Part shown: positions 46,362 through 62,050 of the stretch, one piece after another
Layout: every line of letters starts with the position of its first letter
How positions within the stretch are numbered: the stretch's first letter is position 1
Source: Nonomuraea rubra
GTDB taxonomy: Bacteria > Actinomycetota > Actinomycetes > Streptosporangiales > Streptosporangiaceae
DNA length: 64,000 nucleotides
NCBI RefSeq assembly: GCF_014207985.1
Contig: NZ_JACHMI010000001.1
Span: forward strand, 2,339,001-2,403,000
Direction of reading: 5' to 3'
Notes under the pieces: generated by a model
The model's database searches: none
The model's input: only the letters and a program-made list of their open reading frames with translations
Told to the model about the DNA's origin: nothing
Position numbers and translations under genes: made by a program

Positions 46362-47627
46362 CTACCGGTAGGTGATGTCGGACGGGGAGTAGAGGCAGTT
46401 CACCCCGTCGGCGCCTTCACCGATCTTGGTGGGTTCACTGCCCTTCGGCACGCCCTTGTACTTCTCGCAGATGACCGCGCTGCCGTACACGGTGATCCGG
46501 CGGAAGCGCGCGGTGTCGCCCCAGTTGGTGTTGATGCCGGCCAGCACCTTGGTGGAGCGGGCGGTCACGCCGTCCATCACCACGTGGCGCTGGTAGGAGG
46601 AGGAGCAGTTGCCGCAGGCGCGGTAGAGCTTGCCCGAGCTGTGCACCTGGAAGTTCTTGATGGTGACCGTGCCGGCGCCGTTGTGCTGGAAGACCTTGTC
46701 GGAGCCGGACTTGGCGCCGCCGCCGTCCACCAGGTAGGTCGCCGAGGAGCTGGAGCTCATGAACGTGGCCGCGTCCTCGCCGACGTCGTTCCACCACACG
46801 TTGCGGATGGTGCAGGAGCCCAGGCAGTGGATGCCGTCGCCGGCCGGGGCGTCGATGATGACGTTCTGGATCGTGCCGCCGTTGGCGACCTCGAACATCG
46901 GGTCCTGGCTCTCGCTCTGGCCGCCGTCGCCGATGCCGTAGTAGCTCTTCATGCCACCGTCGAAGTTGGTGACCTGCTGGGTGTCGGCGAGCTTGACGCT
47001 GCCGGTGGCGGTCGGCCACGCGCCGCTGCCGTCCCCGCCGCCGCTGGTCGGGGTGATGGTCGGCGTGGGGGTGGGCGTGGGGTCCGGGCCGGAGCCGCCG
47101 GCGGCCCGCAGCGTCCACTGCTTGGTGGCGACCGAGTCGCAGGAGTTCTGCTGGAGGAGGGCGCCGGACGACGTGGAGTTGTCCTTGACGTTGAGGCACT
47201 TGCCGCCGTTGCCGTTGACCACCCGGTACGCCGACCCGGACGTGGTGAGCTGCCAGGTCTGCGACGCGCCCCCGGTGCAGCCCTCCTGCTGGACGGCCTT
47301 GCCCGCCGAGGTCGAGGCGTCGCGCACGCCCGCGCACTTGCCGCTGTGCTGGGCCTTGATCTGGAAGCCGCCGCTGGTGGCGGTGAGCGTGAAGACCTGC
47401 CCGGCGCCGCCCGAGCAGGTGCTCTGCACGAGCTGGACGCCGTCCCCGGTGCTCTGGTTCGGTACGGCGGCGCAGAGTCCGCTCCCGGCGTTGACCAGCG
47501 TGTAGTTGCCGTTGGACGGGGCGGCCGAGGCGGGGCTGTTGAGCGCGGCCACCAGCCCTCCGGTCGCAAGGAGGCCGGTGGCCAGCACGACCATGAGCCT
47601 TCTGCCGATACGTTCCTTTTCGCGCAC
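46362..47627 (-). CDS. Secreted pectate lyase with ricin-type CBM13
   Basis: A 421-aa exported enzyme. The signal peptide is RRLMVVLATGLLATGG...ASA. A ricin-B/CBM13 domain of three repeats (NAGSGLCAAV, AQHSGKCAGV, NGNGGKCLNV, each with QxW-type ends) is joined by a Pro-Thr linker to a PL3-type pectate lyase (IIDAPAGDGIHCLGSCTIRNVWW, VGEDAATF, HNGAGTVTIKNF). It should cut polygalacturonate. Two LacI-type operators lie upstream. Confidence 0.92.
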   Translation of the reverse strand: MREKERIGRRLMVVLATGLLATGGLVAALNSPASAAPSNGNYTLVNAGSGLCAAVPNQSTGDGVQLVQSTCSGGAGQVFTLTATSGGFQIKAQHSGKCAGVRDASTSAGKAVQQEGCTGGASQTWQLTTSGSAYRVVNGNGGKCLNVKDNSTSSGALLQQNSCDSVATKQWTLRAAGGSGPDPTPTPTPTITPTSGGGDGSGAWPTATGSVKLADTQQVTNFDGGMKSYYGIGDGGQSESQDPMFEVANGGTIQNVIIDAPAGDGIHCLGSCTIRNVWWNDVGEDAATFMSSSSSATYLVDGGGAKSGSDKVFQHNGAGTVTIKNFQVHSSGKLYRACGNCSSSYQRHVVMDGVTARSTKVLAGINTNWGDTARFRRITVYGSAVICEKYKGVPKGSEPTKIGEGADGVNCLYSPSDITYR

Positions 47628-50685: not shown

Positions 50686-50728
50686 CGGGTCCATCGGACC
50701 TCTCAGTAGGGACTTTGGTCCCTGCCTC
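50686..50728 (+). promoter_or_regulatory. Two-palindrome DosR-like promoter cassette of the nar operon
   Basis: GGTCC-ATC-GGACC lies at 50688-50700 and AGGGAC-TTTG-GTCCCT at 50708-50723, centres about 21.5 bp (two helical turns) apart. The second fits the core GGGACT-N-GTCCC of the mycobacterial DosR box. The 43-bp block is 36/43 identical to the block at 62008-62050 in front of the nitroreductase gene, and its box centre is 43.5 nt from the narG ATG. Confidence 0.7.
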
Positions 50729-50758
50729 CCGCCCTGGGCCGGCCGCGAGGCTGGTCCC

Positions 50759-53700
50759 ATGCCCGATATCGACGCGGTTCCCGGCATGGGGCCGTTGCTT
50801 GCCGCCAGGACGTTCTTCACCAAGGCCGAGGTGTCGGCCGACGGCCGTACGCTGCACCAGATCGACCCAGGCGCGTGGGACCGCTTCTACCGCGACCGGT
50901 GGGCGCACGACAAGGTCGTGCGCTCGACCCATGGGGTGAACTGCACGGGCTCGTGCTCGTGGCAGGTGTTCGTCAAGGACGGCCTGATCACCTGGGAGCA
51001 CCAGGCCACCGACTACCCGTCGGTGGGGCCGGAGTCGCCCGAGTACGAGCCGCGCGGGTGCCCGCGTGGCGCGTCGTTCTCCTGGTACACCTACTCGCCG
51101 TCCCGCGTGCGCTACCCGTACGTGCGCGGGGTGCTGCTGGAGATGTGGCGGGAGGCCCGCGACCGGCTGGGTGACCCCGTGCTGGCGTGGGCGGAGCTGA
51201 CCGGCGACCCGGAGCGGGCGCGGGCGTACAAGAGGGCGCGCGGCAAGGGCGGGTTCGTGCGGTCGAGCTGGGACGAGGTCCTGGAGCTGATGGCCGCCGC
51301 GCACGTGCACACCATCAAGCGGTACGGTCCCGACCGGGTCGTCGGCTTCTCGCCCATCCCCGCCATGTCGATGGCGTCGTTCGCGGCCGGCACCCGGTTC
51401 CTGTCGATGATCGGCGGCACGCTGCTGTCCTTCTACGACTGGTACGCCGACCTGCCGATCGCCTCCCCGCAGGTGTGGGGCGACCAGACGGACGTGCCCG
51501 AGGCCGCCGACTGGTGGAACTCCCGCTACCTGATCATGTGGGGCTCCAACATCCCGGTCACCAGGACGCCGGACGCGCACTTCATGACCGAGGCCCGCTA
51601 CCAGGGCACCAAGGTCGTCGCGGTCAGCCCCGACTACGCCGACAACGTCAAGTTCGCCGACGACTGGCTGTCGCCGCATCCGGGCACGGACGGCGCGCTG
51701 GCCATGGCCATGGGGCACGTGGTGCTGTCGGAGTTCTTCCGCGACCGCCAGGTCCCCTACTTCACCGACTATGCCCGGAAATATACGGACCTGCCGTTCC
51801 TGGTGACGCTGGAGCCGCGCGGCGACGCCTACGTCCCGCGCCGCTTCCTGACCGCCGCCGACCTGCCCGGACATGAGAGCGAGGGCGGTGAGAACGCCGC
51901 GTTCAAGACCGTCTTCCTGGACGAGGCGAGTGGCGCGCCCGTCGTGCCGAACGGCTCGCTCGGCTTCCGGTGGGGCCAGGAGGGCGAGGGGCGCTGGAAC
52001 CTCGACCTGGACGGCGCCCGCCCGGCGCTCACGCTGCTCGGCGGGCGCGCGGTGGAGGTGGACCTGCCGCGCTTCGACCAGGGCGACACCGAGGGAGGCT
52101 CCGCCATGCGGCGCGGCGTGCCCGTCGCCGAGGTGGGCGGCAAGCTCGTCACCACCGTGTTCGACCTGCTCATGGCCCAGTACGGGGTGCCGCGCGACGG
52201 CCTGCCCGGCCAGTGGCCCGCCGGGTACGGCGACGCCGCGCAGCCGTACACGCCGGCCTGGGCCGAGGAGATCACCTCCGTGCCGGCCGCCACGACGGCC
52301 AGGATCGCCCGCGAGTTCGCCCGCAACGCCGAGGTCACCGAGGGCCGCTCGATGATCGCGATGGGCGCCGGCACCAACCACTGGTTCCACTCCGACCAGA
52401 TCTACCGCGCGTTCCTGACCCTGACCACGCTGACCGGCTGCCAGGGCGTCAACGGCGGCGGCTGGGGCCACTACGTCGGCCAGGAGAAGGTCCGCCCGAT
52501 CACCGGCTTCCAGCACCTGGCCTTCGCCTTCGACTGGCAGCGCCCGACCCGGCACATGGCGGGCACCGCGTTCTGGTACCTGGCCACCGACCAGTGGCGT
52601 TACGAGCGGATCGGCGCGGACGAGCTGGCCAGCCCGCTGGGCGAGGGCCTGTTCGAGGGCCGCTCGTTCGCCGACTGCAACGCCCAGGCCGCCCGGCTGG
52701 GCTGGCTGCCCTCGCACCCGACGTTCGACCGCAACCCGCTCGACCTCGCCGACGAGGCCGGGCTGAAGGGGGTCCCGGTCGCCGAGCACGTGGTGAACGA
52801 GCTGACCGCGGGCCGCCTGCGCTTCGCCGCCGAGGACCCCGGCGACCCGGCCAACTTCCCGCGCGTGCTCACCGTCTGGCGGGCCAACCTGCTCGGCTCG
52901 TCCGGCAAGGGCAACGAGTACTTCCTGCGGCACCTGCTCGGCACCGACGCCGAGACCCGCAACGAGGAAGGCACCCGCCCGGCCGAGGTGACCTGGCGCG
53001 AGGAGGCCGCCGAGGGCAAGCTCGACCTGCTGACCACGATCGACTTCCGGATGACGTCCACGGCGCTGTTCGCCGACGTCGTGCTGCCCGCCGCCACCTG
53101 GTACGAGAAGCACGACCTGTCGAGCACCGACATGCACCCGTTCGTGCACGCCTTCAACCCGGCCATCGCCCCGCCCTGGCAGACCCGCTCCGACTACGAT
53201 GCCTTCCTCGGCCTCGCCGACGCGTTCTCGAAGCTGGCCGCGGCCCACCTCGGCACCCGTACCGACGTGCTGGCCGTGCCGCTCGCCCACGACACCCCCG
53301 ACGAGCTGGCCCAGCCCGGCGGCCGGGTGCTCGACTGGAAGCGCGGCGAGTGCGAGCCGATCCCCGGCAGGACCATGCCGAGGATCGTCACGATCGAGCG
53401 CGACTACGCGGCCGTCGCCGAGCGCATGCGCGGCATCGGGCCGCTCTTCGGCAAGCTCGGGCTGACCACCAAGGGCATCACCTACCAGGTCGGGCCCGAG
53501 CTGGTGCACCTGCGCGGCAAGAACGGCCGCACCCCCGAGGGCCGGATCTCGCTGGAGACGGCCGACCGCATGTGCGAGGCCATCCTCGCGCTGTCGGGCA
53601 CCACCAACGGCCGCCTGGCCACGCAGGGCTTCGAGACGCTGGAGCGGCGCACCGGGACCCGGCTGGCTGACCTGGCCGCCGAGCACGAGGGCAAGCGCAT

Positions 53701-54415
53701 CACGTTCGCGGACACGCAGTCCAGGCCGCAACCGGTGATCACCTCGCCCGAGTGGTCGGGCTCCGAGACGGGCGGGCGCCGCTACTCCGCGTTCGTGATC
53801 AACGTCGAGCGCGACAAGCCGTGGCACACGCTGACAGGGCGGCAGCAGTTCTTCCTCGACCACGACTGGATCATCGAGCTGGGGGAGCAGCTGCCCGCCT
53901 ACCGGCCGCCGCTCAACCTGCTGCGCCACTACGGCGAGCAGGGCGAGGGGGACGCCGCCGAGGTGACGGTCCGCTACCTGACCCCGCACTCCAAGTGGTC
54001 CATCCACTCCGAGTACCAGGACAACGCGTACATGCTGGCGCTGTCGCGCGGCGGGCCCACGATCTGGATGAGCGTCGAGGACGCCGCGCGGATCGGGGTC
54101 GCCGACAACGACTGGATCGAGGCGTACAACCGCAACGGCGTGGTCGTGGCCAGGGCCGTCGTCTCCCACCGCATGCCCGCCGGGACCGTGTACATGTACC
54201 ACGCCAAGGACCGCAACGTGAACGTGCCGCTCACCGAGAAGTCGGGCCGGCGCGGCGGCGTGCACAACTCCCTCACCCGGCTGCTGCTCAAACCCAGCCA
54301 CCTCATCGGCGGGTACGCGCAGTTCACCTACGCCTTCAACTACTACGGGCCGACCGGCAACCAGCGGGACGAGGTCACCGTGATCCGCCGCCGCACCCAG
54401 GAGGTGACCTACTGA
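50759..54415 (+). CDS. narG: Respiratory nitrate reductase, alpha (molybdenum) subunit
   Basis: A 1218-aa catalytic subunit that reduces nitrate to nitrite with a bis-MGD molybdenum centre. The N-terminal FS0 cluster ligands are visible: H58, C62, C66 and C101 (STHGVNCTGSCSW, EPRGCPRG). YLIMWGSNIPVTRTPDAHF and the terminal YYGPTGNQRDEVTVI are characteristic. No Tat-like RR signal is present, as usual for cytoplasmic NarG. The stop overlaps the narH ATG by 1 bp. Confidence 0.97.
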   Translation: MPDIDAVPGMGPLLAARTFFTKAEVSADGRTLHQIDPGAWDRFYRDRWAHDKVVRSTHGVNCTGSCSWQVFVKDGLITWEHQATDYPSVGPESPEYEPRGCPRGASFSWYTYSPSRVRYPYVRGVLLEMWREARDRLGDPVLAWAELTGDPERARAYKRARGKGGFVRSSWDEVLELMAAAHVHTIKRYGPDRVVGFSPIPAMSMASFAAGTRFLSMIGGTLLSFYDWYADLPIASPQVWGDQTDVPEAADWWNSRYLIMWGSNIPVTRTPDAHFMTEARYQGTKVVAVSPDYADNVKFADDWLSPHPGTDGALAMAMGHVVLSEFFRDRQVPYFTDYARKYTDLPFLVTLEPRGDAYVPRRFLTAADLPGHESEGGENAAFKTVFLDEASGAPVVPNGSLGFRWGQEGEGRWNLDLDGARPALTLLGGRAVEVDLPRFDQGDTEGGSAMRRGVPVAEVGGKLVTTVFDLLMAQYGVPRDGLPGQWPAGYGDAAQPYTPAWAEEITSVPAATTARIAREFARNAEVTEGRSMIAMGAGTNHWFHSDQIYRAFLTLTTLTGCQGVNGGGWGHYVGQEKVRPITGFQHLAFAFDWQRPTRHMAGTAFWYLATDQWRYERIGADELASPLGEGLFEGRSFADCNAQAARLGWLPSHPTFDRNPLDLADEAGLKGVPVAEHVVNELTAGRLRFAAEDPGDPANFPRVLTVWRANLLGSSGKGNEYFLRHLLGTDAETRNEEGTRPAEVTWREEAAEGKLDLLTTIDFRMTSTALFADVVLPAATWYEKHDLSSTDMHPFVHAFNPAIAPPWQTRSDYDAFLGLADAFSKLAAAHLGTRTDVLAVPLAHDTPDELAQPGGRVLDWKRGECEPIPGRTMPRIVTIERDYAAVAERMRGIGPLFGKLGLTTKGITYQVGPELVHLRGKNGRTPEGRISLETADRMCEAILALSGTTNGRLATQGFETLERRTGTRLADLAAEHEGKRITFADTQSRPQPVITSPEWSGSETGGRRYSAFVINVERDKPWHTLTGRQQFFLDHDWIIELGEQLPAYRPPLNLLRHYGEQGEGDAAEVTVRYLTPHSKWSIHSEYQDNAYMLALSRGGPTIWMSVEDAARIGVADNDWIEAYNRNGVVVARAVVSHRMPAGTVYMYHAKDRNVNVPLTEKSGRRGGVHNSLTRLLLKPSHLIGGYAQFTYAFNYYGPTGNQRDEVTVIRRRTQEVTY

Positions 54416-55968
54416 TGAGGGTCATGGCACAGGTGGCCATGGTGATGAACCTGGACAAGTGCATCGGCTGCCACACCTGCTCCGTCACGTGCAAGCAGAC
54501 CTGGACCAACCGGGACGGCGTCGAGTACGTCTGGTTCAACAACGTCGAGACCAAGCCAGGCGTCGGCTACCCCAAGCGCTACGAGGACCAGGAGCGCTGG
54601 CGCGGCGGCTGGCAGCTCGACCGGCGCGGCCGGCTCAAGCTCCGCGCCGGCGGCCGGATCAAGCGGCTGGTCAACCTCTTCTCCAACCCCGACCTGCCCG
54701 CCCTGGACGACTACTACGAGCCGGCCACCTACGACTACGACACCCTGCTCAACGCCCCTGCCGGGCCGCACACGCCGGTCATCCGCCCCAAGTCCGCCAT
54801 CACCGGCGAGGACCTGGCCATCACCTGGGGCGCGAACTGGGAGGACGACCTGGGCGGCGCCCCCGAGCACGCCCCGGCGGACCCGAACCTGGCCGCGATG
54901 GCGGAGCGGGTGCGGCTGGAGTTCGACCGGACGTTCATGTTCCACCTGCCGCGCATCTGCGAGCACTGCCTCAACCCGGCCTGCGTGGCCGCCTGCCCGT
55001 CGGGGGCCATGTACAAGCGGGAGGAGGACGGCATCGTCCTGGTGGACCAGGACCGGTGCAGGGGCTGGCGCATGTGCGTGTCGTCGTGCCCGTACAAGAA
55101 GGTGTACGTCAACCACAGGACCGGCAAGGCCGAGAAGTGCACGTTCTGCTTTCCGCGCATCGAGGCCGGGCAGCCGACCGTGTGCGCCGAGACCTGCGTC
55201 GGCCGGCTGCGCTACCTCGGGCTCATCCTGTACGACGCCGACGCCGTGCTCGGCGCGGCCCGCGTCGAGGACCCGCGCGACCTGCTGGAGGCGCAGCGCC
55301 GGGTCTTCCTCGACCCCGACGACCCGGCCGTCGTCGCCGCCGCCCGTGCCGCCGGGATCAGCGAGGACTGGATCGCGGCCGCCCGGCGCTCGCCGATCTA
55401 CCGGCTGGCGATGAAGTACCGGGTGGCGCTGCCGCTGCACCCGGAGTACCGGACGATGCCCATGGTCTGGTACATCCCGCCGCTGTCTCCCGTGCTGGAC
55501 GCCGTCACCGGCGTTGGCGCGGACGCCGACGACCCCGACAACGTCTTCCACGCCATCACCGACCTGCGGATCCCCCTCGAATACCTGGCGAGCCTGTTCT
55601 CGGCGGGGGACACCGAGGTGGTGGCCGGGGTGCTGATGAAGCTGTCGGCCATGCGGGCGTACATGCGGGCCAGGACCATCGACGGCACCCAGTCCGCAGA
55701 GCTGCTGGAGGCGGTGGGGATGACCGCGGCCGACCTGGAGGAGCTGTACCGGCTGCTGGCCATCGCCAAGTACGACGAGCGTTACGTCGTGCCCGCCGCG
55801 CACCGCGAGGACGCCGCCGCGCTGTCGGCCCAGGTGGACGGGTGCAGCCTCGACGGGGAGGGCGGGCCGGGCATGGGCGGCTTCCACCCGGAGGGGCTGA
55901 CCGGCAGGCGCGGCGACGGGCGCCTCGGGCTGAAGCTGTTCGCCGGCGGCAAGGGAGGTGCGGCGTGA
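54415..55968 (+). CDS. narH: Respiratory nitrate reductase, beta (iron-sulfur) subunit
   Basis: A 517-aa electron-transfer subunit with four cysteine groups: CIGCHTCSVTCKQTW, CEHCLNPACVAACPSG, CRGWRMCVSSCPYKK (Trp in place of one Cys, which marks the 3Fe-4S cluster of NarH) and CTFCFPRIEAG...CAETC. It passes electrons from NarI to NarG. It overlaps narG by 1 bp and narJ by 4 bp. Confidence 0.96.
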   Translation: MRVMAQVAMVMNLDKCIGCHTCSVTCKQTWTNRDGVEYVWFNNVETKPGVGYPKRYEDQERWRGGWQLDRRGRLKLRAGGRIKRLVNLFSNPDLPALDDYYEPATYDYDTLLNAPAGPHTPVIRPKSAITGEDLAITWGANWEDDLGGAPEHAPADPNLAAMAERVRLEFDRTFMFHLPRICEHCLNPACVAACPSGAMYKREEDGIVLVDQDRCRGWRMCVSSCPYKKVYVNHRTGKAEKCTFCFPRIEAGQPTVCAETCVGRLRYLGLILYDADAVLGAARVEDPRDLLEAQRRVFLDPDDPAVVAAARAAGISEDWIAAARRSPIYRLAMKYRVALPLHPEYRTMPMVWYIPPLSPVLDAVTGVGADADDPDNVFHAITDLRIPLEYLASLFSAGDTEVVAGVLMKLSAMRAYMRARTIDGTQSAELLEAVGMTAADLEELYRLLAIAKYDERYVVPAAHREDAAALSAQVDGCSLDGEGGPGMGGFHPEGLTGRRGDGRLGLKLFAGGKGGAA

Positions 55969-56642
55969 AGCTCCGCACGCGGCCCGACACCACCCCTGAG
56001 GCGAGCCCGCGGGAGCGGGCGGCGTTCCTGCGGCTGGTGTCGCTGCTCCTGCAGTACCCCGACGACGGCCTGCTGGCCGCCCGCGACGAGCTGTGCCGCG
56101 CCGCCGGCGCGCTGCCCGTCTCGCCGGGGCGGGACGACCTGGTCGCGTTCACCGGCTGGTACCGCGAGTGCGAGCCGATGCCGCTGGCCCGCTCCTACGT
56201 CGAGACGTTCGACCTGCGCCGCAGGTCCAGCCTCTACCTCACCTACTACCTGCACGGCGACACCCGCCGCCGCGGCATGGCCCTGCTCACGCTCAAGCAG
56301 CGCTACCGCGTGGCCGGGCTGGTCCCGCCGGAGGGCGAGCTGCCCGACTTCCTGCCGGTGGTCTGCGAGTTCGCCGCCCTGGCGGGGCCCGTCACGGGCG
56401 AGGCGCCGCTGCGGCAGCACCGCAGGGGGCTGGAGCTGATCCGCTCCGCCCTGCGCTCCGCCGGGTCGCCGTACTCGCTGGTGCTCGACGCGCTCTGCGC
56501 CGGGCTGCCCGAGCTGTCCGCGGCCGACCGCGCCGCCGTCGCCGGCCTCGCCCTGGCCGGGCCGCCCGCCGAGGAGGTCGGCCTCGCGCCGTACGGCCCG
56601 CCGCTCGGCCAGCCGTTCAACGAAATGGAGGTACGGCCGTGA
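55965..56642 (+). CDS. narJ: Nitrate reductase assembly chaperone
   Basis: A 225-aa TorD-like chaperone that holds NarG for molybdenum-cofactor insertion. SLLLQYPDD near the N-terminus and YVETFDLRRRSSLYLTYYLHGDTRRRG are NarJ features. GTG 55965 overlaps the narH stop by 4 bp. Confidence 0.92.
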   Translation: MKLRTRPDTTPEASPRERAAFLRLVSLLLQYPDDGLLAARDELCRAAGALPVSPGRDDLVAFTGWYRECEPMPLARSYVETFDLRRRSSLYLTYYLHGDTRRRGMALLTLKQRYRVAGLVPPEGELPDFLPVVCEFAALAGPVTGEAPLRQHRRGLELIRSALRSAGSPYSLVLDALCAGLPELSAADRAAVAGLALAGPPAEEVGLAPYGPPLGQPFNEMEVRP

Positions 56643-57331
56643 GCGTCGTGCTCTGGGTCGTCGTCCCGTACATCGCCCTGACGATCTTCGTCGTGGGGCA
56701 CGTCTGGCGCTGGCGGGTGGACCAGTTCGGCTGGACCACCCGCACCACGCAGGTGCTGGAGAGCCGGCTGCTGCGGCTCGGGTCGCCGCTGTTCCACCTC
56801 GGCGCGTTCGCCGCGATCGGCGGGCACGTCCTGGGGCTGCTCGTCCCCAAGAGCTGGACCGCGGCCGTCGGCGTGGACGAGCACCTGTACCACCTGGTGT
56901 CGGTCAGCGCCGGCACCGTGGCCGGGCTCATGGTGGTGGCCGGGCTCGCGCTGCTGCTGGCCCGCCGCCTCACCAGCCCACGGGTACGCCGCACCACGAC
57001 CCGCGCCGACAAGGTGCTGTTCACGGTGCTGGCGGTGGTGATCCTGCTCGGCATGAGCGCCACCGTGGGCAAGAACCTGCTCGGCGGCGGCTACGACTAC
57101 CGTGCCACCATCGCCGTCTGGTTCCGCGGCGTGCTCTCCTTCCGGCCCGACCCCGACCTCATGACGGGCGTGCCGCTGATCTTCCAGTTGCACGCGATGT
57201 CGGCGTGGCTGCTGGCCGCCATCTGGCCGTTCACCCGGCTCGTGCACGTCTGGTCGGCGCCGATCGCCTACCTGTGGCGGCCGTACGTCGTCTACCGGCG
57301 GCGTGCGGTGCCCGCGGGGGCCGGGAAATGA
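56639..57331 (+). CDS. narI: Respiratory nitrate reductase, gamma (cytochrome b) subunit
   Basis: A 230-aa membrane subunit with five segments and the heme histidines in GHVWRWRVDQFGW, PLFHLGAFAAIGGHVLG and LHAMSAWLLAAIWPFTRLVHVWS. It oxidises quinol and passes electrons to NarH. GTG 56639 overlaps narJ; the stop overlaps the next ATG. Confidence 0.94.
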   Translation: MSVVLWVVVPYIALTIFVVGHVWRWRVDQFGWTTRTTQVLESRLLRLGSPLFHLGAFAAIGGHVLGLLVPKSWTAAVGVDEHLYHLVSVSAGTVAGLMVVAGLALLLARRLTSPRVRRTTTRADKVLFTVLAVVILLGMSATVGKNLLGGGYDYRATIAVWFRGVLSFRPDPDLMTGVPLIFQLHAMSAWLLAAIWPFTRLVHVWSAPIAYLWRPYVVYRRRAVPAGAGK

Positions 57332-57831
57332 GCGCCGTGCGCGGCGCGGCCGCGATCCTGCTGGGAGCCGCCGGAGCCGCGATGGTAGCGGCGGGGCCGG
57401 TCATGGCGCTCAAGGGGGCGCGGGGCCGTGCCGACATCCGGGCGGAGCTGCGCGGCCAGGCGATCAGCTTCCCCGGCCAGGCGATCAGCCTCTCCGGCCA
57501 GGCGCCGCCCGCCGGGGCCCCGGGCCGGGACGTCCTGACCGGGCCGCAGGCCAGGGCCTTCGCCGAGGTGATCGGGCGCAACGTGCTCGCGGCCACGGGC
57601 GGGCGCACGTACGCGGAGGTCAGCGCCGAGCTGATGGCGGCGGGAGGCGACGACGAGGCGCTGACCCGGCTGCGGCAGACCGCCTTCACCGGCCAGATGC
57701 TGCGGGCCTCGCTGCTCAACGCCTACCAGGCCTGGCAGGTCACCACCCTGGTCATCGGCCTGGGCGCGCTGCTGACCGTGACGGGCGCCGCGCTCCTCGC
57801 CGCGAGCGCCCTGCTCGCCACCACGGGGTGA
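57328..57831 (+). CDS. Small membrane protein in the nar operon
   Basis: A 167-aa protein with an N-terminal membrane segment (AAAILLGAAGAAMVAAGPVMAL), a short tandem unit (GQAISFPGQAISLSGQAPP), a soluble middle part, and a C-terminal membrane segment (LVIGLGALLTVTGAALLAASALLA). No family recognised. ATGA overlap with narI suggests a role at the nitrate reductase complex. Confidence 0.72.
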   Translation: MSAVRGAAAILLGAAGAAMVAAGPVMALKGARGRADIRAELRGQAISFPGQAISLSGQAPPAGAPGRDVLTGPQARAFAEVIGRNVLAATGGRTYAEVSAELMAAGGDDEALTRLRQTAFTGQMLRASLLNAYQAWQVTTLVIGLGALLTVTGAALLAASALLATTG

Positions 57832-57837
57832 CGTCCG

Positions 57838-58302
57838 GTGGAAGCGCCTTCCGCCACCTCGTGCGATCCGCTCGCCGGACGCGCGGTGCGCGAGCCGCGT
57901 GCCGGGCGCGCGGTGCGCGAGCCGGTCGCCGGGCGTGGCGGGGGTGAGCTTCCCGCGCCGTACGACGGGCTGTTGCGCGCGTACGCCGCCGCGCTGGCGG
58001 GCTCCCGCCTGGCTCACTCCAGCAGGGCCGTCTACCTGCGGCGTGCCCGCGGCTACCTGGCCTGGATCGCGTCGGAGGTGGCCGGCGGGCGGCTGGCGGG
58101 GGAGCCGCTGGCCGACATGACCGCGGCCGTCCGCGCCGCCCGGGCCTACCACCGCGCGCTGGCCGGCCGCTGCACCCCCCGCACCGCCGACGGCGTGCGC
58201 GCCGCCGTCGAGGACTTCCACACCCGGCTCGGGCTGGGCGGCACGGGCATCCCCCGAGCGCCGGCCCCACCACCTCTCGCAACCCCTGTGAGGAAGACAT
58301 GA
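57838..58302 (+). CDS. Small protein resembling a tyrosine-recombinase N-terminal domain
   Basis: A 154-aa protein. Residues 42-135 (YDGLLRAYAAALAGSRLAHS...YLRRARGYLAWIASE...ADMTAAVRAARAYHRALAG) look like the SAM-like, core-binding domain of phage-type integrases; the catalytic domain is absent. The N-terminus carries an 8-residue tandem unit (AGRAVREP). It starts 6 bp after the previous stop and overlaps narK by 4 bp, so it is translated with the operon. A domestication or regulatory role is an inference. Confidence 0.55.
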   Translation: MEAPSATSCDPLAGRAVREPRAGRAVREPVAGRGGGELPAPYDGLLRAYAAALAGSRLAHSSRAVYLRRARGYLAWIASEVAGGRLAGEPLADMTAAVRAARAYHRALAGRCTPRTADGVRAAVEDFHTRLGLGGTGIPRAPAPPPLATPVRKT

Positions 58303-59513
58303 CGAACCTTTCGCCCACCGGCCGCCGACCGGCGGTGATGCTCGCCCTGGCGACGCTGGGCTTCGCGGTGAACTTCTGGGCCTGGGCGCTGCTGAGCCCG
58401 CTCGGCCCCCGCTTCAAGGAGTCCCTCGGCCTGTCGGCCGCCCAGCAGGCGCTGCTGGTGGCCGTGCCGGTGATCGTCGGGTCGCTGGGCCGCATCCCCG
58501 TGGGCGCGCTCACCGACCGGTTCGGCGGGCGCGTGATGTTCCCGCTGATCTCCGCCGCGACCATCGTGCCCGTGCTGTTCATCGGGGTGGCGGGGCAGAC
58601 GTCGTTCGCCGCGCTGCTGGCCGGCGGCTTCTTCCTGGGCATCGGCGGGACGGTCTTCGCCGTCGGCGTGCCGTTCGTCAACGCCTGGTTCCCGCCGCAC
58701 CGGCGCGGGTTCGCGGTCGGCGTGTTCGGCGCCGGCATGGGCGGCACCGCGATCAGCGCCCTGACCACGGTGAGCCTGGTCAGGACGGGCGGCGCGGCCA
58801 CCCCGTTCCTGATCACCGCCGCCGTCCTGGCCTGCTACGCCGCCGTCGCCTGGCTGGTCCTGCGCGACGCGCCCGGCCGTACGGTGGCGACCGAGCCGCT
58901 GGCGGCGCGCATGGCGGCCACGCTGAGGCTGCCGATCACCTGGCAGGCGTGCGTGCTGTACGCGGTGGCGTTCGGCGGGTACGTGGCCTTCTCCGTCTAC
59001 CTGCCCGCCTACCTGCAGACCGGGTACGGCCTCGAACAGGCCGACGCCGCCAACCGGATGGCCGGGTTCGTGGTGCTGGCGGTGCTGCTGCGGCCGATCG
59101 GCGGCTGGCTGTCGGACCGGGTCGGGCCGGTGCCCGTGCTGGCGGGCGGGTTCGCGGTGATCGCCGTGATGGCGGGCGTGCAGGCGCTCACGCCGGGGCT
59201 GATGCCGCTGGGCACGATCGCGTTCCTGACCATGGCCGCCGCGCTCGGAGCGGGCAGCGGCGCCACGTTCGCCCTGGTCGCGCAGGTCGCGCCGGCGGAC
59301 AAGGTGGGCTCGGTCACGGGGCTGGTGGGGGCCGCGGGCGGGCTCGGCGGGTTCGTGCCGCCGCTGCTCATGGGGTTCATCTACGGGGAGCTCGGGTCGT
59401 ACGGGCTGGGCCTGGCGCTGCTGGCGGTCACGGCCGTGATCACCCTGGCCCTGACGGTCACCGTGATCCGCGCGGCGGCCACCCGCCGCACCGCCGAGCT
59501 GCCGGTCGGCTGA
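58299..59513 (+). CDS. narK: Nitrate/nitrite transporter
   Basis: A 404-aa MFS protein with about 12 membrane segments. WAWALLSPLGPRFKESLGLSAAQQ and the motif-A-type loop RIPVGALTDRFGGR are typical of the NarK/NarU group. The NarK signature GGxxGxxGFVPP is partly visible as GAAGGLGGFVPP. It would import nitrate and export nitrite for the reductase. Confidence 0.9.
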   Translation: MTNLSPTGRRPAVMLALATLGFAVNFWAWALLSPLGPRFKESLGLSAAQQALLVAVPVIVGSLGRIPVGALTDRFGGRVMFPLISAATIVPVLFIGVAGQTSFAALLAGGFFLGIGGTVFAVGVPFVNAWFPPHRRGFAVGVFGAGMGGTAISALTTVSLVRTGGAATPFLITAAVLACYAAVAWLVLRDAPGRTVATEPLAARMAATLRLPITWQACVLYAVAFGGYVAFSVYLPAYLQTGYGLEQADAANRMAGFVVLAVLLRPIGGWLSDRVGPVPVLAGGFAVIAVMAGVQALTPGLMPLGTIAFLTMAAALGAGSGATFALVAQVAPADKVGSVTGLVGAAGGLGGFVPPLLMGFIYGELGSYGLGLALLAVTAVITLALTVTVIRAAATRRTAELPVG

Positions 59514-59525
59514 GGGGGTACACGG

Positions 59526-59553
59526 CAGGGCGCCGCCGCACGGCGGCGCCCTG
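59526..59553. terminator. Strong bidirectional hairpin terminator
   Basis: Perfect 13-bp arms, CAGGGCGCCGCCG (59526-59538) and CGGCGGCGCCCTG (59541-59553), with a 2-nt loop, lie between the narK stop and the convergent flavoprotein stop at 59556. Confidence 0.8.
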
Positions 59554-59555
59554 GC

Positions 59556-60974
59556 TTACAGGTGGGCTTGCAACAGGATGTGGGACACGACGTCGGCGGC
59601 CGAGTAGTCGTCGGGCAGGCCGTCGAGGAAGCCGGTGTCCTGGCCCAGGGTCAGCAGGGGCGGTTCCGCGTAGCCGCCGGCGCGGTGCTGGCCGAGCCCG
59701 ATCGCGGCCAGCAGGCCGTTGCACAGGCAGCGGCGGCCGTCGGCCTCCTCGGCCGGGCGGCCCTTGCGCACGTAGACGTCCACCGGCTCGGCGGCGCAGC
59801 GGTAGCCGACCGAGCCGTCCCCCTTCTCGTACGGTGTCCGCAGGTAGCCCAGGTCGCACAGGCGGGGCCGGGTCTCGTACACGTCCTGCTCCGACAGCGT
59901 CCCCGGCACGGCGGCGACCTTGAACGGGAACCCGGTGGGCGAGGCCCGCGGATCGTTGCGCACCAGCCCGGCCTGCCTGCGCAGCCGCCGGCGCAGCACC
60001 GGATCGAGCCCGGACTCGCGGCACAGTGCGAACGCCGACCCCACCTGGATCCCGTCGGCGCCCGCCGCCAGGGCCCGCTCCAGGCCGCCGGGAGTGCCGT
60101 ACCCGCCGGCCAGCCAGAACGGCAGCCCGAGCGCGGCCACCTTGGCCAGGTCGGCCTCGTCGCGCGGCCCGTACACCGGCTCGCCCGCCGCGTCGAGCAC
60201 CGTCCGGCCGCGCGGCGGCGCGCTGTGGCCGCCCGCGACCGGCGTCTCGATCACGAACCCGTCGGGCCTCGTCAGGGGAGCGCGGGCCAGGTACGCGGCC
60301 AGCACGTGCGACGACACGATCGCCAGGAGCCGGGGCCTGGGCAGCGGCCCGAGCCGGCGGCCGAGCAGCGCCACCGGGTCGATCCCCGCCGTGTGCCCCT
60401 CGCCGTCCGCCACGGCGACCGAGATCCGGCCGGGACGCTGCCCGGCCAGGTCGTCGAGCAGGCGCGGGATCTCCGCCGGGATGCCCGCGCCCATCAGCAC
60501 GTAGTCGGCTCCGGCCAGCATCGCGCCGTAGGCGGCGGCGGGCGTGGCGAGCTGGATCTTCTCCAGGTAGTTGACGCCGACGGGGCCCTCGTGCCCCTCC
60601 TTGGCGAGGAACACCTCGGCGAAGTTGGCGACCACGGTCAGCTCGTCGCCCGCGCGGCTGCCGCGCAGGCCGAGCCTGGGCACCGGCCGGTACGGGACAC
60701 CCTCGGCGGTGCCGCCCGGCACGAAGTAGCGGCCGAGCACCCGCTCGGCGATCCCGGGCACGGGGAAGCTCGCCAGCGCGCGGCGCAGGTCGCCGCCGGG
60801 GTCGCCGAGCTGCAGCCGCCTGGCCAGGGTGACGTCCAGCGCGGTGCCCGACACCACGCCGAGCTGGCCGGTCATCGCGACGGCCCGCGCCAGCCGCCAC
60901 CCGGACACCCCCACGCCCATCCCGCCCTGGATCAGTACCGGCCGGGTCCTCGGCCCGCTGGTCGGATCAGCCAC
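59556..60974 (-). CDS. Nitronate monooxygenase-like flavoprotein
   Basis: A 472-aa FMN-dependent TIM-barrel protein of the 2-nitropropane dioxygenase/PfaD group. Motifs are LIQGGMGVGVSGWRLARAVA, MLAGADYVLMGAGIPAEIP, the catalytic-His block TPVAGGHSAPPRGR and the phosphate loop LAGGYGTPGGLERALAAGADGIQVG. A Cys-rich C-terminus (RRCLCNGLL) extends beyond the usual 320-380 aa. GTG 60974 overlaps the nitroreductase stop by 8 bp. It may detoxify nitro compounds or nitronates formed under nitrate respiration. Confidence 0.85.
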   Translation of the reverse strand: MADPTSGPRTRPVLIQGGMGVGVSGWRLARAVAMTGQLGVVSGTALDVTLARRLQLGDPGGDLRRALASFPVPGIAERVLGRYFVPGGTAEGVPYRPVPRLGLRGSRAGDELTVVANFAEVFLAKEGHEGPVGVNYLEKIQLATPAAAYGAMLAGADYVLMGAGIPAEIPRLLDDLAGQRPGRISVAVADGEGHTAGIDPVALLGRRLGPLPRPRLLAIVSSHVLAAYLARAPLTRPDGFVIETPVAGGHSAPPRGRTVLDAAGEPVYGPRDEADLAKVAALGLPFWLAGGYGTPGGLERALAAGADGIQVGSAFALCRESGLDPVLRRRLRRQAGLVRNDPRASPTGFPFKVAAVPGTLSEQDVYETRPRLCDLGYLRTPYEKGDGSVGYRCAAEPVDVYVRKGRPAEEADGRRCLCNGLLAAIGLGQHRAGGYAEPPLLTLGQDTGFLDGLPDDYSAADVVSHILLQAHL

Positions 60975-61977
60975 GCCGGGCCTCCCGCAGGTCGACGACC
61001 TCGGACACCGGCCGCCGCGGCACCTCCGCGACCGCCGGCCCGTAGCCGAACCTGGCCAGCATCTGCACGTGCCCGAACGGCCCTGGGCGGTCGCCGCGGT
61101 GCTGCGGGGCGCGCAGGTCCAGCGGCTGGCTGAACAGCGACGCCGCCACGCCGTGCGCGGTCGCGGTGAGCAGCACGCGCTGCAGCGCCTGCCCGGCACG
61201 CAGCCAGTCCCGCGGCCCGTCCTGCCGGGTGAACAGGGCCGCCAGCCGCGGCTCCCTCTCGAAGTCGGCGTCCGGCCGGGCGGCGCCGGGGGCGAAGTCC
61301 CGCAGGGGTGGCGCGCCGCGTACCGGGCGCGGGCCGAAGGCGTGCTCGGGCACGCCGTCGGAGCGCACGCCCGAGCCGGTCCATCGGGCCAGCTCGGCCC
61401 GGTAAGACTCGTCGGCGGCCAGCGTGTCCTCGGCCGCGCCCACCATGTCGAGCACCCGCCGCGCCGCCCTGCCCGTCACCGGCACCAGCGTCGCGCGTTC
61501 GGCGTGGGCGGCGTGGACCAGCTTGACGAAGACGTCCCGGGGCAGCGGCTGCCCGTCGAACGGGAACCGGTTCGTGCGCCGGTGCGGGATCATCTCGTAC
61601 AGCAGGCGCTCGCCGGCCTCCGGCGGCTCCCCCGGCACGGCGCGCACGGTGGCCAGCAGGTCGGGGCGCTCGCCCGGATCGGGCAGGGCCGTGACGCGGG
61701 CGTCGTGGCCGGTCATCCGGAGCGCCAGCCTGAGGTTGAACAGCGCGGCCCCGCAGCTGATGCCGAGCCCGCGGCCCATCGGGTCCGTGACGATCAGCAA
61801 CCGGTCGAGGTCCGCGTACAGCTCCATGGTGGCGTCGTCGACCCGGCGGAAGCGCCAGGGCTGGGTGTTGTGCACGGACGGCGCGGCCACGGCGGCGGAC
61901 ACCGCCCTGCGCACCCCGGCACGCGTCGCGAACGGCGGCGCGCCGGGCGGATCGGTCACGGGAACATGAGCAGACAT
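60967..61977 (-). CDS. Acg-family nitroreductase-like protein
   Basis: A 336-aa protein of the Acg/Rv2032 group, a nitroreductase-fold family with a lid that covers the flavin site. SVHNTQPWRFRR opens the fold, and the second half has QALQRVLLTATAHGVAASLFSQPLDL. In mycobacteria the family is part of the DosR dormancy regulon. Here the gene has a DosR-like cassette placed exactly as in front of narG. Confidence 0.85.
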   Translation of the reverse strand: MSAHVPVTDPPGAPPFATRAGVRRAVSAAVAAPSVHNTQPWRFRRVDDATMELYADLDRLLIVTDPMGRGLGISCGAALFNLRLALRMTGHDARVTALPDPGERPDLLATVRAVPGEPPEAGERLLYEMIPHRRTNRFPFDGQPLPRDVFVKLVHAAHAERATLVPVTGRAARRVLDMVGAAEDTLAADESYRAELARWTGSGVRSDGVPEHAFGPRPVRGAPPLRDFAPGAARPDADFEREPRLAALFTRQDGPRDWLRAGQALQRVLLTATAHGVAASLFSQPLDLRAPQHRGDRPGPFGHVQMLARFGYGPAVAEVPRRPVSEVVDLREARRG

Positions 61978-62007
61978 GCACCCAAGATCTCGTGATCCGC
62001 CACGCCC

Positions 62008-62050
62008 GAGGCAGGGACCAAAGTCCTTCAGAACAGGCCCGATGGACCCG
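62008..62050 (-). promoter_or_regulatory. Two-palindrome DosR-like promoter cassette of the nitroreductase gene
   Basis: On the minus strand the box AAGGACTTTGGTCCCT (62028-62013) and the partner GGTCC-ATC-GGGCC (62048-62036) copy the nar cassette. The box centre is 43.5 nt from the ATG at 61977, the same as for narG. 36 of 43 positions match the nar copy. Confidence 0.7.

Follow-up and report, generated by a model that had tools for sequence, protein, structure and literature searches.

A conserved tandem promoter module, probably OsdR-dependent, precedes the nitrate reductase operon and an Acg-family nitroreductase gene of Nonomuraea rubra

Why do a nitrate respiration operon and a nitroreductase gene of Nonomuraea rubra carry nearly the same 43-bp cassette in front of their start codons, and which regulator might read it? 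The window, the whole stretch of 64,000 nucleotides that was analysed, contains the following genes around the two cassettes.

50759..54415, plus strand: narG (TIGR01580, 1633 bits), with its ATG as the inferred transcription start
54415-55968, plus strand: narH (TIGR01660, 765 bits)
55965-56642, plus strand: narJ (TIGR00684, 120 bits)
56639-57331, plus strand: narI (TIGR00351, 209 bits)
58299..59513, plus strand: NarK-type nitrate/nitrite transporter (MFS_1; TIGR00886, 192 bits, below the cut-off of 311.7)
59556..60974, minus strand: nitronate-monooxygenase-type flavoprotein (PF03060, 51 bits; in NCBIfam a weak FabK match only)
60967..61977, minus strand: acg-family FMN nitroreductase (NF047509, 307 bits; 2ymv Acg, 106 bits)

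The four nar genes score above the cut-offs of their models and lie in order, forming the respiratory nitrate reductase operon narGHJI. The original prediction had named the nitroreductase as Acg, and its NF047509 score, well above the curated cut-off of 199, bears this out. The GTG start of the nitronate-monooxygenase-type gene overlaps the end of acg, and the two genes form a probable operon.

One cassette (50686-50728, plus strand) lies before narG and the other (62008-62050, minus strand) before the Acg-family gene. Aligned without gaps, they are identical at 36 of 43 positions, while the next best 43-mer match to the first cassette on either strand of the window reaches 24/43. The elements of the two promoters are as follows.

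50688-50700, plus strand: distal palindrome of the nar promoter, GGTCCATCGGACC
50687..50700, plus strand: distal element of nar in box register, GGGTCCATCGGACC, a probable second OsdR site
50709..50722, plus strand: proximal OsdR/DosR-type box of nar, GGGACTTTGGTCCC
50747..50752, plus strand: -10-like hexamer of nar, GAGGCT, with A at -11 and T at -7 from the start codon
62036-62048, minus strand: distal palindrome of the acg promoter, GGTCCATCGGGCC, with one mismatch
62035..62048, minus strand: distal element of acg in box register, GGGTCCATCGGGCC
62014..62027, minus strand: proximal OsdR/DosR-type box of acg, AGGACTTTGGTCCC
61984..61989, minus strand: -10-like hexamer of acg, GATCTT

In both cassettes the distance from the box centre to the first base of the start codon (50759; 61977 on the minus strand) is 43.5 nt. 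This distance and the 36/43 identity had been reported before, and our re-measurement confirmed both. The centres of the two palindromes are 21.5 bp apart for the 13-bp palindrome, or 22 bp in box register.

The box in loose form is not informative. The pattern GGGACNNNNGTCCC with at most two mismatches occurs 53 times in the window against a shuffle mean of 104.6; it is rarer than in shuffled sequence, and a loose box therefore carries no meaning by itself. Genome-wide, boxes with at most two mismatches number 36, as do those of the reversed control, showing no excess. The full cassette, unlike the loose box, is specific: the distal-N8-box pattern with at most three mismatches hits 31 sites spread over 22 of the 297 family genomes, while its reversed form hits none. 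A 39-bp pattern built from both cassettes, again with at most three mismatches, matches the window's own genome at exactly these two places, and the looser distal-N8-box pattern adds a third copy there, upstream of a nirK-like gene. This genome scan, proposed along with the original prediction, thus returned a copy beyond the window pair, which by its sequence is a new addition to the candidate targets.

We then consider the regulator. The genome encodes an OsdR/DosR orthologue (L034:5756-6397) that scores 269 bits to Mycobacterium tuberculosis DevR (3c3w) over residues 1-211 and keeps DevR residues D54, K179, K182, N183, and T198, with T205 replaced by Ala. K182 is described as a DNA-binding residue of DevR, and we take K179 and N183 to be DNA-binding residues as well. 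There are also two DevS/OsdK-type kinases with a GAF-GAF-HisKA_3 arrangement (Pfam GAF, HisKA_3, HATPase_c), the first scoring 182.6 bits to the DevS GAF domain and the second being 81% identical to the first. The kinase GAF retains the motif HPPM...LYLT, whose His is presumably the heme ligand. A box of the GGGAC-N4-GTCCC type is present upstream of the targets and of the regulator gene, and ten of the 36 genomic box matches fall in a single 45-kb interval that surrounds osdR (binomial 6e-17, the interval having been picked post hoc). The box signal resides only in the closest matches, in this clustering, and in the full module. A search for DosR/DosS-like genes had been suggested, with the absence of both further copies and a DosR-like regulator as the outcome that would count against a regulon; a third copy and an OsdR orthologue both exist. 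At the sequence level, osdR, the kinases, and the box cluster largely bear out the proposed hypoxia/NO regulon, although the dual palindrome is not regulon-wide, as described below.

Large actinomycete genomes carry many NarL/FixJ regulators, and the box might belong to another LuxR-type response regulator instead of OsdR. We consider this quite improbable: GGGACTTTGGTCCCT agrees with the DosR consensus of M. smegmatis, GGGACTTNNGNCCCT (PMC6448022, as far as consulted), the boxes cluster around osdR, and OsdR retains the three presumed DNA-contacting residues of DevR, K179, K182, and N183.

The cassette was also traced in relatives. An upstream box is found at all 16 close narG orthologues and at 17 of the 18 acg loci taken, the close orthologue L096 having none. 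Together with the nirK-like gene, the 16 narG and 17 acg loci make up 34 modules. For the acg set, 30 loci were fetched, 13 were set aside because of lower identity or membership of the second clade (L104, L106-L109, L111-L116, L118, and L119), and L163 was added; L150-L155 repeat stretches already in the set and were counted once. We note that the choice of module sites favoured those with a distal element, and that the modules, most of them from a single genus, are not independent of one another. In a second narG clade (68-72% identity; L136-L149), 10 of 14 loci have no box scoring at least 11.5 within 320 nt, on a score whose weights were set by hand, and the four with a box all lack the GGTCCATCGG element. 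Judged from these loci, the cassette is a conserved module that precedes narG and acg orthologues in Nonomuraea and in some of its neighbours; N. thailandensis, for example, has it before acg (L150). The module is new here: a literature search by title and abstract start, with subscription journals mostly outside its scope, found no paper on such a module.

The 36/43 identity might simply reflect a recent promoter duplication by descent, without shared function. In all 10 genomes with both loci, however, the element columns of nar and acg are 87% identical, while the spacer columns are 38% identical, near the 32% expected at random. Because the spacers have diverged to this extent, we reject a recent duplication as scarcely credible.

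The distal element is present in its usual form and register in 30 of the 34 modules, and is shifted, degraded, or absent in four. In more distant acg loci, the best box-like 14-mer lies exactly 22 bp upstream of the box in six of eight cases and 23 bp upstream in two. The count draws on eight loci from a set of 29 box-bearing named acg loci (of 80); the remaining 21 are six module loci, L162, and 14 more distant loci. These observations suggest that the distal palindrome is probably a second OsdR site. Alternatively, it could be the site of a second regulator beside OsdR, for example a NarL-type or an NO-responsive protein, marking a nitrate/nitrite sub-regulon. The distal sequence is nearly as conserved as the proximal box and yet different; it stands before nar, acg, and the nirK-like gene of this genome and before a narK-like gene in a relative, and inspection by eye of the other island boxes listed did not show it at that 22-bp offset; a DevR-NarL heterodimer has also been proposed on narK2 of M. 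tuberculosis (PMC8139620, as far as consulted). Such a regulator is nevertheless unlikely, as six of the eight distant acg promoters have an OsdR-like box at the same position, and GGCCGATCGGAC, from the nirK-like gene (L105), resembles the S. coelicolor OsdR consensus AGGGCCGATCGGCCCT given in the consulted part of PMC5069765.

Whichever protein binds it, the dual palindrome had been put forward as the signature of the whole regulon, and this claim does not hold. Since the other island boxes listed lack it (by eye), it marks a small subset, with three copies in the genome. As a free-standing element, the distal sequence was rejected: GGTCCATCGGNCC with at most one mismatch is rarer in the genome (91+74) than its reversed control (170+171). 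It matches exactly at four sites: the two cassettes, a position within acg, and L043, where no box is visible by eye in the 107 nt that follow.

In 31 of the 34 modules, 42-44 nt separate the box centre from the start codon, and among those 31, an A is found at -11 in 30 and a T at -7 in all. Measured from the box, the A...T pair has an offset of 31 in 32 modules and 30 in the other two. The same pair is present at 30-31 in all eight distant acg loci, whose start codons are read 57-81 nt downstream, behind a Shine-Dalgarno-like stretch; in L156, L159, and L160, there is an in-frame GTG/ATG nearer the box, and their distance of 57-71 nt is our own reading. With a -10-like element at this constant distance from the box, transcription would start at the start codon itself. 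By comparison, the box score is passed at 22 places of the 80-kb island region, and a clear start codon at 42-44 nt is found at only two, those of osdR (42) and a pyridoxamine-oxidase-like gene (43); most others differ. The promoter of osdR itself shares the module geometry (ATG at 42, TAGCGT).

That most island boxes lack this distance would fit a normal leader starting further upstream, with the 43-nt distance reflecting something else. We regard this as improbable, as the sole A...T pair at fixed distance in the 34 modules sits where the -10 element for a start at the start codon must lie, it persists in the three modules without a start codon there, and in 29 of 34 the reading frame that begins at the predicted 5' codon is coherent. 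In 18 modules (12 acg and 6 nar), this codon begins an ORF of 9-12 codons whose stop overlaps the start of the gene in an RTGA arrangement, and in 11, the window's included, it opens the gene itself. The other five have a disrupted leader ORF or lack its start. The first six codons of acg in the window appear to be what remains of the leader ORF, in frame with the gene. A conserved leader peptide was rejected; because the residues vary (for example MSVLTSALGMAL, MSAAAPTPGTPR, and MSPVIPAPETSR), the frame and the overlap, and not the peptide, seem to be kept. A hairpin CCGGG...CCCGG before the acg start was also rejected for lack of covariation: among 12 sequences, none of its five pairs changed on both sides, and 500 of 500 shuffles reached the covariation score.

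There is good reason to think that both cassettes represent a single activator module for OsdR (DosR/DevR type), with tandem boxes and a leaderless start. In response to low oxygen or NO, OsdR would be phosphorylated by at least one of the two OsdK-type kinases. OsdR~P would occupy the proximal box GGGACTTTGGTCCC at about -43, over the -35 region, and a second dimer would bind GGTCCATCGGACC, the divergent distal box, which lies on the same side of the DNA helix 22 bp upstream. The two dimers may jointly recruit RNA polymerase, with the -10 element beginning 31 nt past the box centre, and the first transcribed base would be the A or G of the start codon, so that both mRNAs, nar and acg, would be leaderless. 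The start codon at the 5' end would, in most relatives, open the short leader ORF, and the RTGA overlap would pass ribosomes to narG or acg. In this genome, narG would begin at the 5' end itself, and acg would carry the leader relic fused in frame. The module thus probably links OsdR control to leaderless translation. Like the module, the probable distal OsdR site and this placing of the transcription start are new here, and the original prediction included neither this meaning of the 43.5 nt nor the genus-wide module with its leader ORF nor the nirK-like member. A more tentative idea, somewhat doubtful at present, is that unlinked genes of denitrification and nitro-detoxification (nar, acg, and the nirK-like gene) have retained a single portable unit, made of tandem OsdR sites and a start codon that coincides with the transcription start, in which a low-oxygen signal chooses both transcription and leaderless translation and the coupled leader ORF serves as a ribosome loader.

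These results bring Nonomuraea into the predicted DosR/OsdR hypoxia regulon, supply a defined promoter anatomy for use in scans, and add a nitrite-reductase-like gene as a candidate member. They also offer a natural set of promoters that seem to couple leaderless translation to a redox response regulator; if the coupling holds, whether hypoxia favours leaderless mRNAs becomes testable in soil bacteria.

Joint control of nar and the nitroreductase gene, as originally predicted, fits the sites and is not new. The regulon is of a known kind, because OsdR sites before narG2 (-53) and a nitroreductase gene (-99) were already predicted for the S. coelicolor OsdKR regulon (Urem et al. 2016, PMC5069765, Table 1). 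The two systems share a DevR-orthologous OsdR and USP and stress genes around osdR. In that table, as far as consulted, narG2 has a single site and no nirK-like gene is listed, whereas the sites here are tandem and the nirK-like gene is a module member. The consulted part of the account likewise comes without tandem spacing, a leader ORF, or a leaderless start, all three of which are predicted here. By locus tags, nar2 and the nitroreductase gene of S. coelicolor are divergent neighbours near osdR, while nar and acg of Nonomuraea face each other far from the osdR island.

In Mycobacterium, DevR occupies two or more sites in a cooperative manner, and the proximal site covers the -35 region (PMC3029386). 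From what was consulted of this literature (PMC3029386, PMC6448022, PMC8139620, and PMC3110807), the box type, the cooperative two-site promoters, and acg and narK2 as targets are alike in DosR/DevR; the one fixed 22-bp spacing, the drift of the distal half to GGTCCATCGGACC, and a start codon constantly about 43 nt from the box set the present module apart. Leaderless small ORFs coupled by RTGA to the next gene are also known from mycobacteria (Shell et al. 2015, PMC4633059, as far as consulted). The ORFs described here resemble them in their predicted position at the 5' end and in a TGA overlapping the RTG of the next gene, and differ in being known from sequence, in their length of 9-12 codons, and in preceding two unrelated target genes with the same OsdR module upstream.

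The window contains two cassettes on opposite strands, one upstream of narG and the other upstream of acg, each consisting of a distal element and a proximal OsdR/DosR-type box. A third full copy (L038) lies elsewhere in the same genome.

50686-50728, plus strand: nar cassette, which includes the distal palindrome GGTCCATCGGACC
50709-50722, plus strand: proximal box of nar, GGGACTTTGGTCCC
62008-62050, minus strand: acg cassette, which includes the distal palindrome GGTCCATCGGGCC
62014-62027, minus strand: proximal box of acg, AGGACTTTGGTCCC
G000:C1:5332296-5332330 (contig coordinates), minus strand: third full module, upstream of a nirK-like gene

As in the original prediction, the two cassettes are identical at 36 of 43 positions, and the distance between box centre and start codon is 43.5 nt in both; the runner-up to the first cassette anywhere in the window reaches 24/43. 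A loose box search of the window gave no excess over shuffled sequences, and the case for the cassettes rests on the regulator, the relatives, and the geometry rather than on this count.

In profile searches, narG, narH, narJ, and narI each exceed the NCBIfam cut-off, and a NarK-type transporter downstream of them scores under its cut-off. The Acg-family nitroreductase (NF047509, 307 bits versus a cut-off of 199) has its nearest named relative in N. thailandensis (93%). The GTG start of a nitronate-monooxygenase-type gene is located inside the end of acg (the two genes together span 59556-61977, minus strand), and this overlap suggests a single operon for the handling of nitro compounds. The nirK-like gene encodes a membrane protein of 910 residues; against the copper nitrite reductase model, its C-terminal part scores 146 bits, under the cut-off of 296. 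Elsewhere in the window, the protein translated from 46362-47627 (minus strand) seems, by eye, to have ricin-B-like repeats ahead of a pectate-lyase-like part.

Among 297 family genomes, the distal-N8-box pattern with up to 3 mismatches was found at 31 sites in 22 genomes and 3 of 68 genera, and the reversed pattern at none. When the genes were searched first, the box was present at all 16 close narG orthologues (91-100% over a 160-residue query) and at 17 of the 18 acg loci taken. The locus without a box (L096, genome G217) is a close acg orthologue; a leader-like GTG frame with an ATGA ending is retained there, directly after the apparent end of another gene. Of the resulting 34 modules (16 narG loci, 17 acg loci, and the nirK-like gene), 30 carry the distal element in the usual form and register. 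L134 has no distal element, that of L099 is degraded, and those of L125 and L130 are displaced by one base. Ten genomes carry both copies; comparison of their nar and acg modules gives 87% identity at element columns but 38% at spacer columns, where composition alone predicts 32%, indicating that the elements were kept and the remainder drifted.

The window occupies C1:2339001-2403000 of a 12.88-Mb genome, which has 36 box sites with up to 2 mismatches. As the reversed control also gives 36 (15+21), there is no overall enrichment. Ten of the 36 sites are clustered within 45 kb (C1:8956993-9001939). In or adjoining this island are genes for cytochrome bd subunit I, an OsdK-type kinase, a CBS-BON protein, an OsdR-type regulator, universal stress and CBS proteins, an arginine deiminase C-terminal part, an amino-acid antiporter-type permease, a second NarG, a NarK-type transporter, and a protein with the ribosome-hibernation S30AE domain. 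The DosR/DosS-like genes that the original prediction named as a check are both present: the regulator scores 269 bits to M. tuberculosis DevR, retaining D54, K179, K182, N183, and T198, with T205 replaced by Ala, and the kinase scores 182.6 bits to the DevS GAF domain. Another OsdK-type kinase (L037 5804-7453) shares 81% identity with the island kinase and sits past an exact box at C1:4426199, ahead of a further Acg-family gene (L037 7568-8560). Besides the window's narG, the genome has two homologues (C1:1027676 and C1:8967868) that are 67% and 71% identical to it over the query, making three altogether; three are reported for S. coelicolor (PMC8139620).

In most Nonomuraea modules, the distal element reads GGYCYATCGGRC. 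Eight distant acg loci from Actinomadura, Planobispora, Planomonospora, and Sphaerisporangium were searched 14 to 44 bp above the main box for the best box-like 14-mer. It lies exactly 22 bp above the main box in six and 23 bp above it in two, and the Nonomuraea element also holds the 22-bp register. The Nonomuraea element is probably a diverged second OsdR site, as in DevR promoters, where the proximal site overlaps the -35 and, for some genes, cooperative binding at two or more sites is important to full induction (PMC3029386). A site for a second regulator is a rather improbable candidate, kept because the distal sequence is unlike that of the proximal box, and inspection by eye of the other island boxes printed showed no such sequence above them.

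In 31 of 34 modules the box centre and a start codon are 42-44 nt apart, with A at -11 in 30 of these 31 and T at -7 in all. In general, a -10 element at -12 to -7 sets the transcription start, and the predicted +1 of the Nonomuraea modules would fall on the start codon. Relative to the box, the A...T pair has an offset of 31 in 32 modules and of 30 in the remaining two; no other offset shows the pair in as many as five of the 34. The offset is likewise 30 or 31 at all eight distant loci, where we read the start codons 57-81 nt away, behind a Shine-Dalgarno-like stretch; this constancy ties the -10 to the box. The osdR gene itself fits the geometry (TAGCGT, ATG at 42); most of the 22 island places passing the box score have no start codon at 42-44 nt.

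This first codon opens the structural gene in 11 of 34 modules, including the window's narG and acg and the nirK-like gene. In 18 modules (12 acg, 6 nar) it opens a 9-12-codon ORF that ends in an RTGA overlap with the structural gene, narG or acg. Two modules have a frame without the overlap, and three have no such codon. Since the leader peptide varies among modules and a possible leader hairpin shows no covariation, we infer that the leader ORF serves ribosome loading. By comparison, the leader of the window's acg seems to have been fused in frame (MSAHVP ahead of the usual VTDP start), and leader-like residues, MSGVNPVP, are also in frame with the nirK-like protein. These short overlapping ORFs resemble the coupled leaderless ORFs reported as over-represented in mycobacteria (PMC4633059).

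No description of the tandem, predicted leaderless module was found in the literature searched at the level of titles and abstract openings; from sequence, the module common to nar, acg, and the nirK-like gene appears to be a variant of a known OsdR-type regulon. The nar-nitroreductase regulon originally proposed is very probably right and of a known kind: S. coelicolor has predicted OsdR sites ahead of both narG2 and a nitroreductase gene (PMC5069765, Table 1), and a review places narGHJI2 under OsdRK (PMC8139620), so the co-control proposed for Nonomuraea is the same in kind as that of the S. coelicolor OsdKR regulon.
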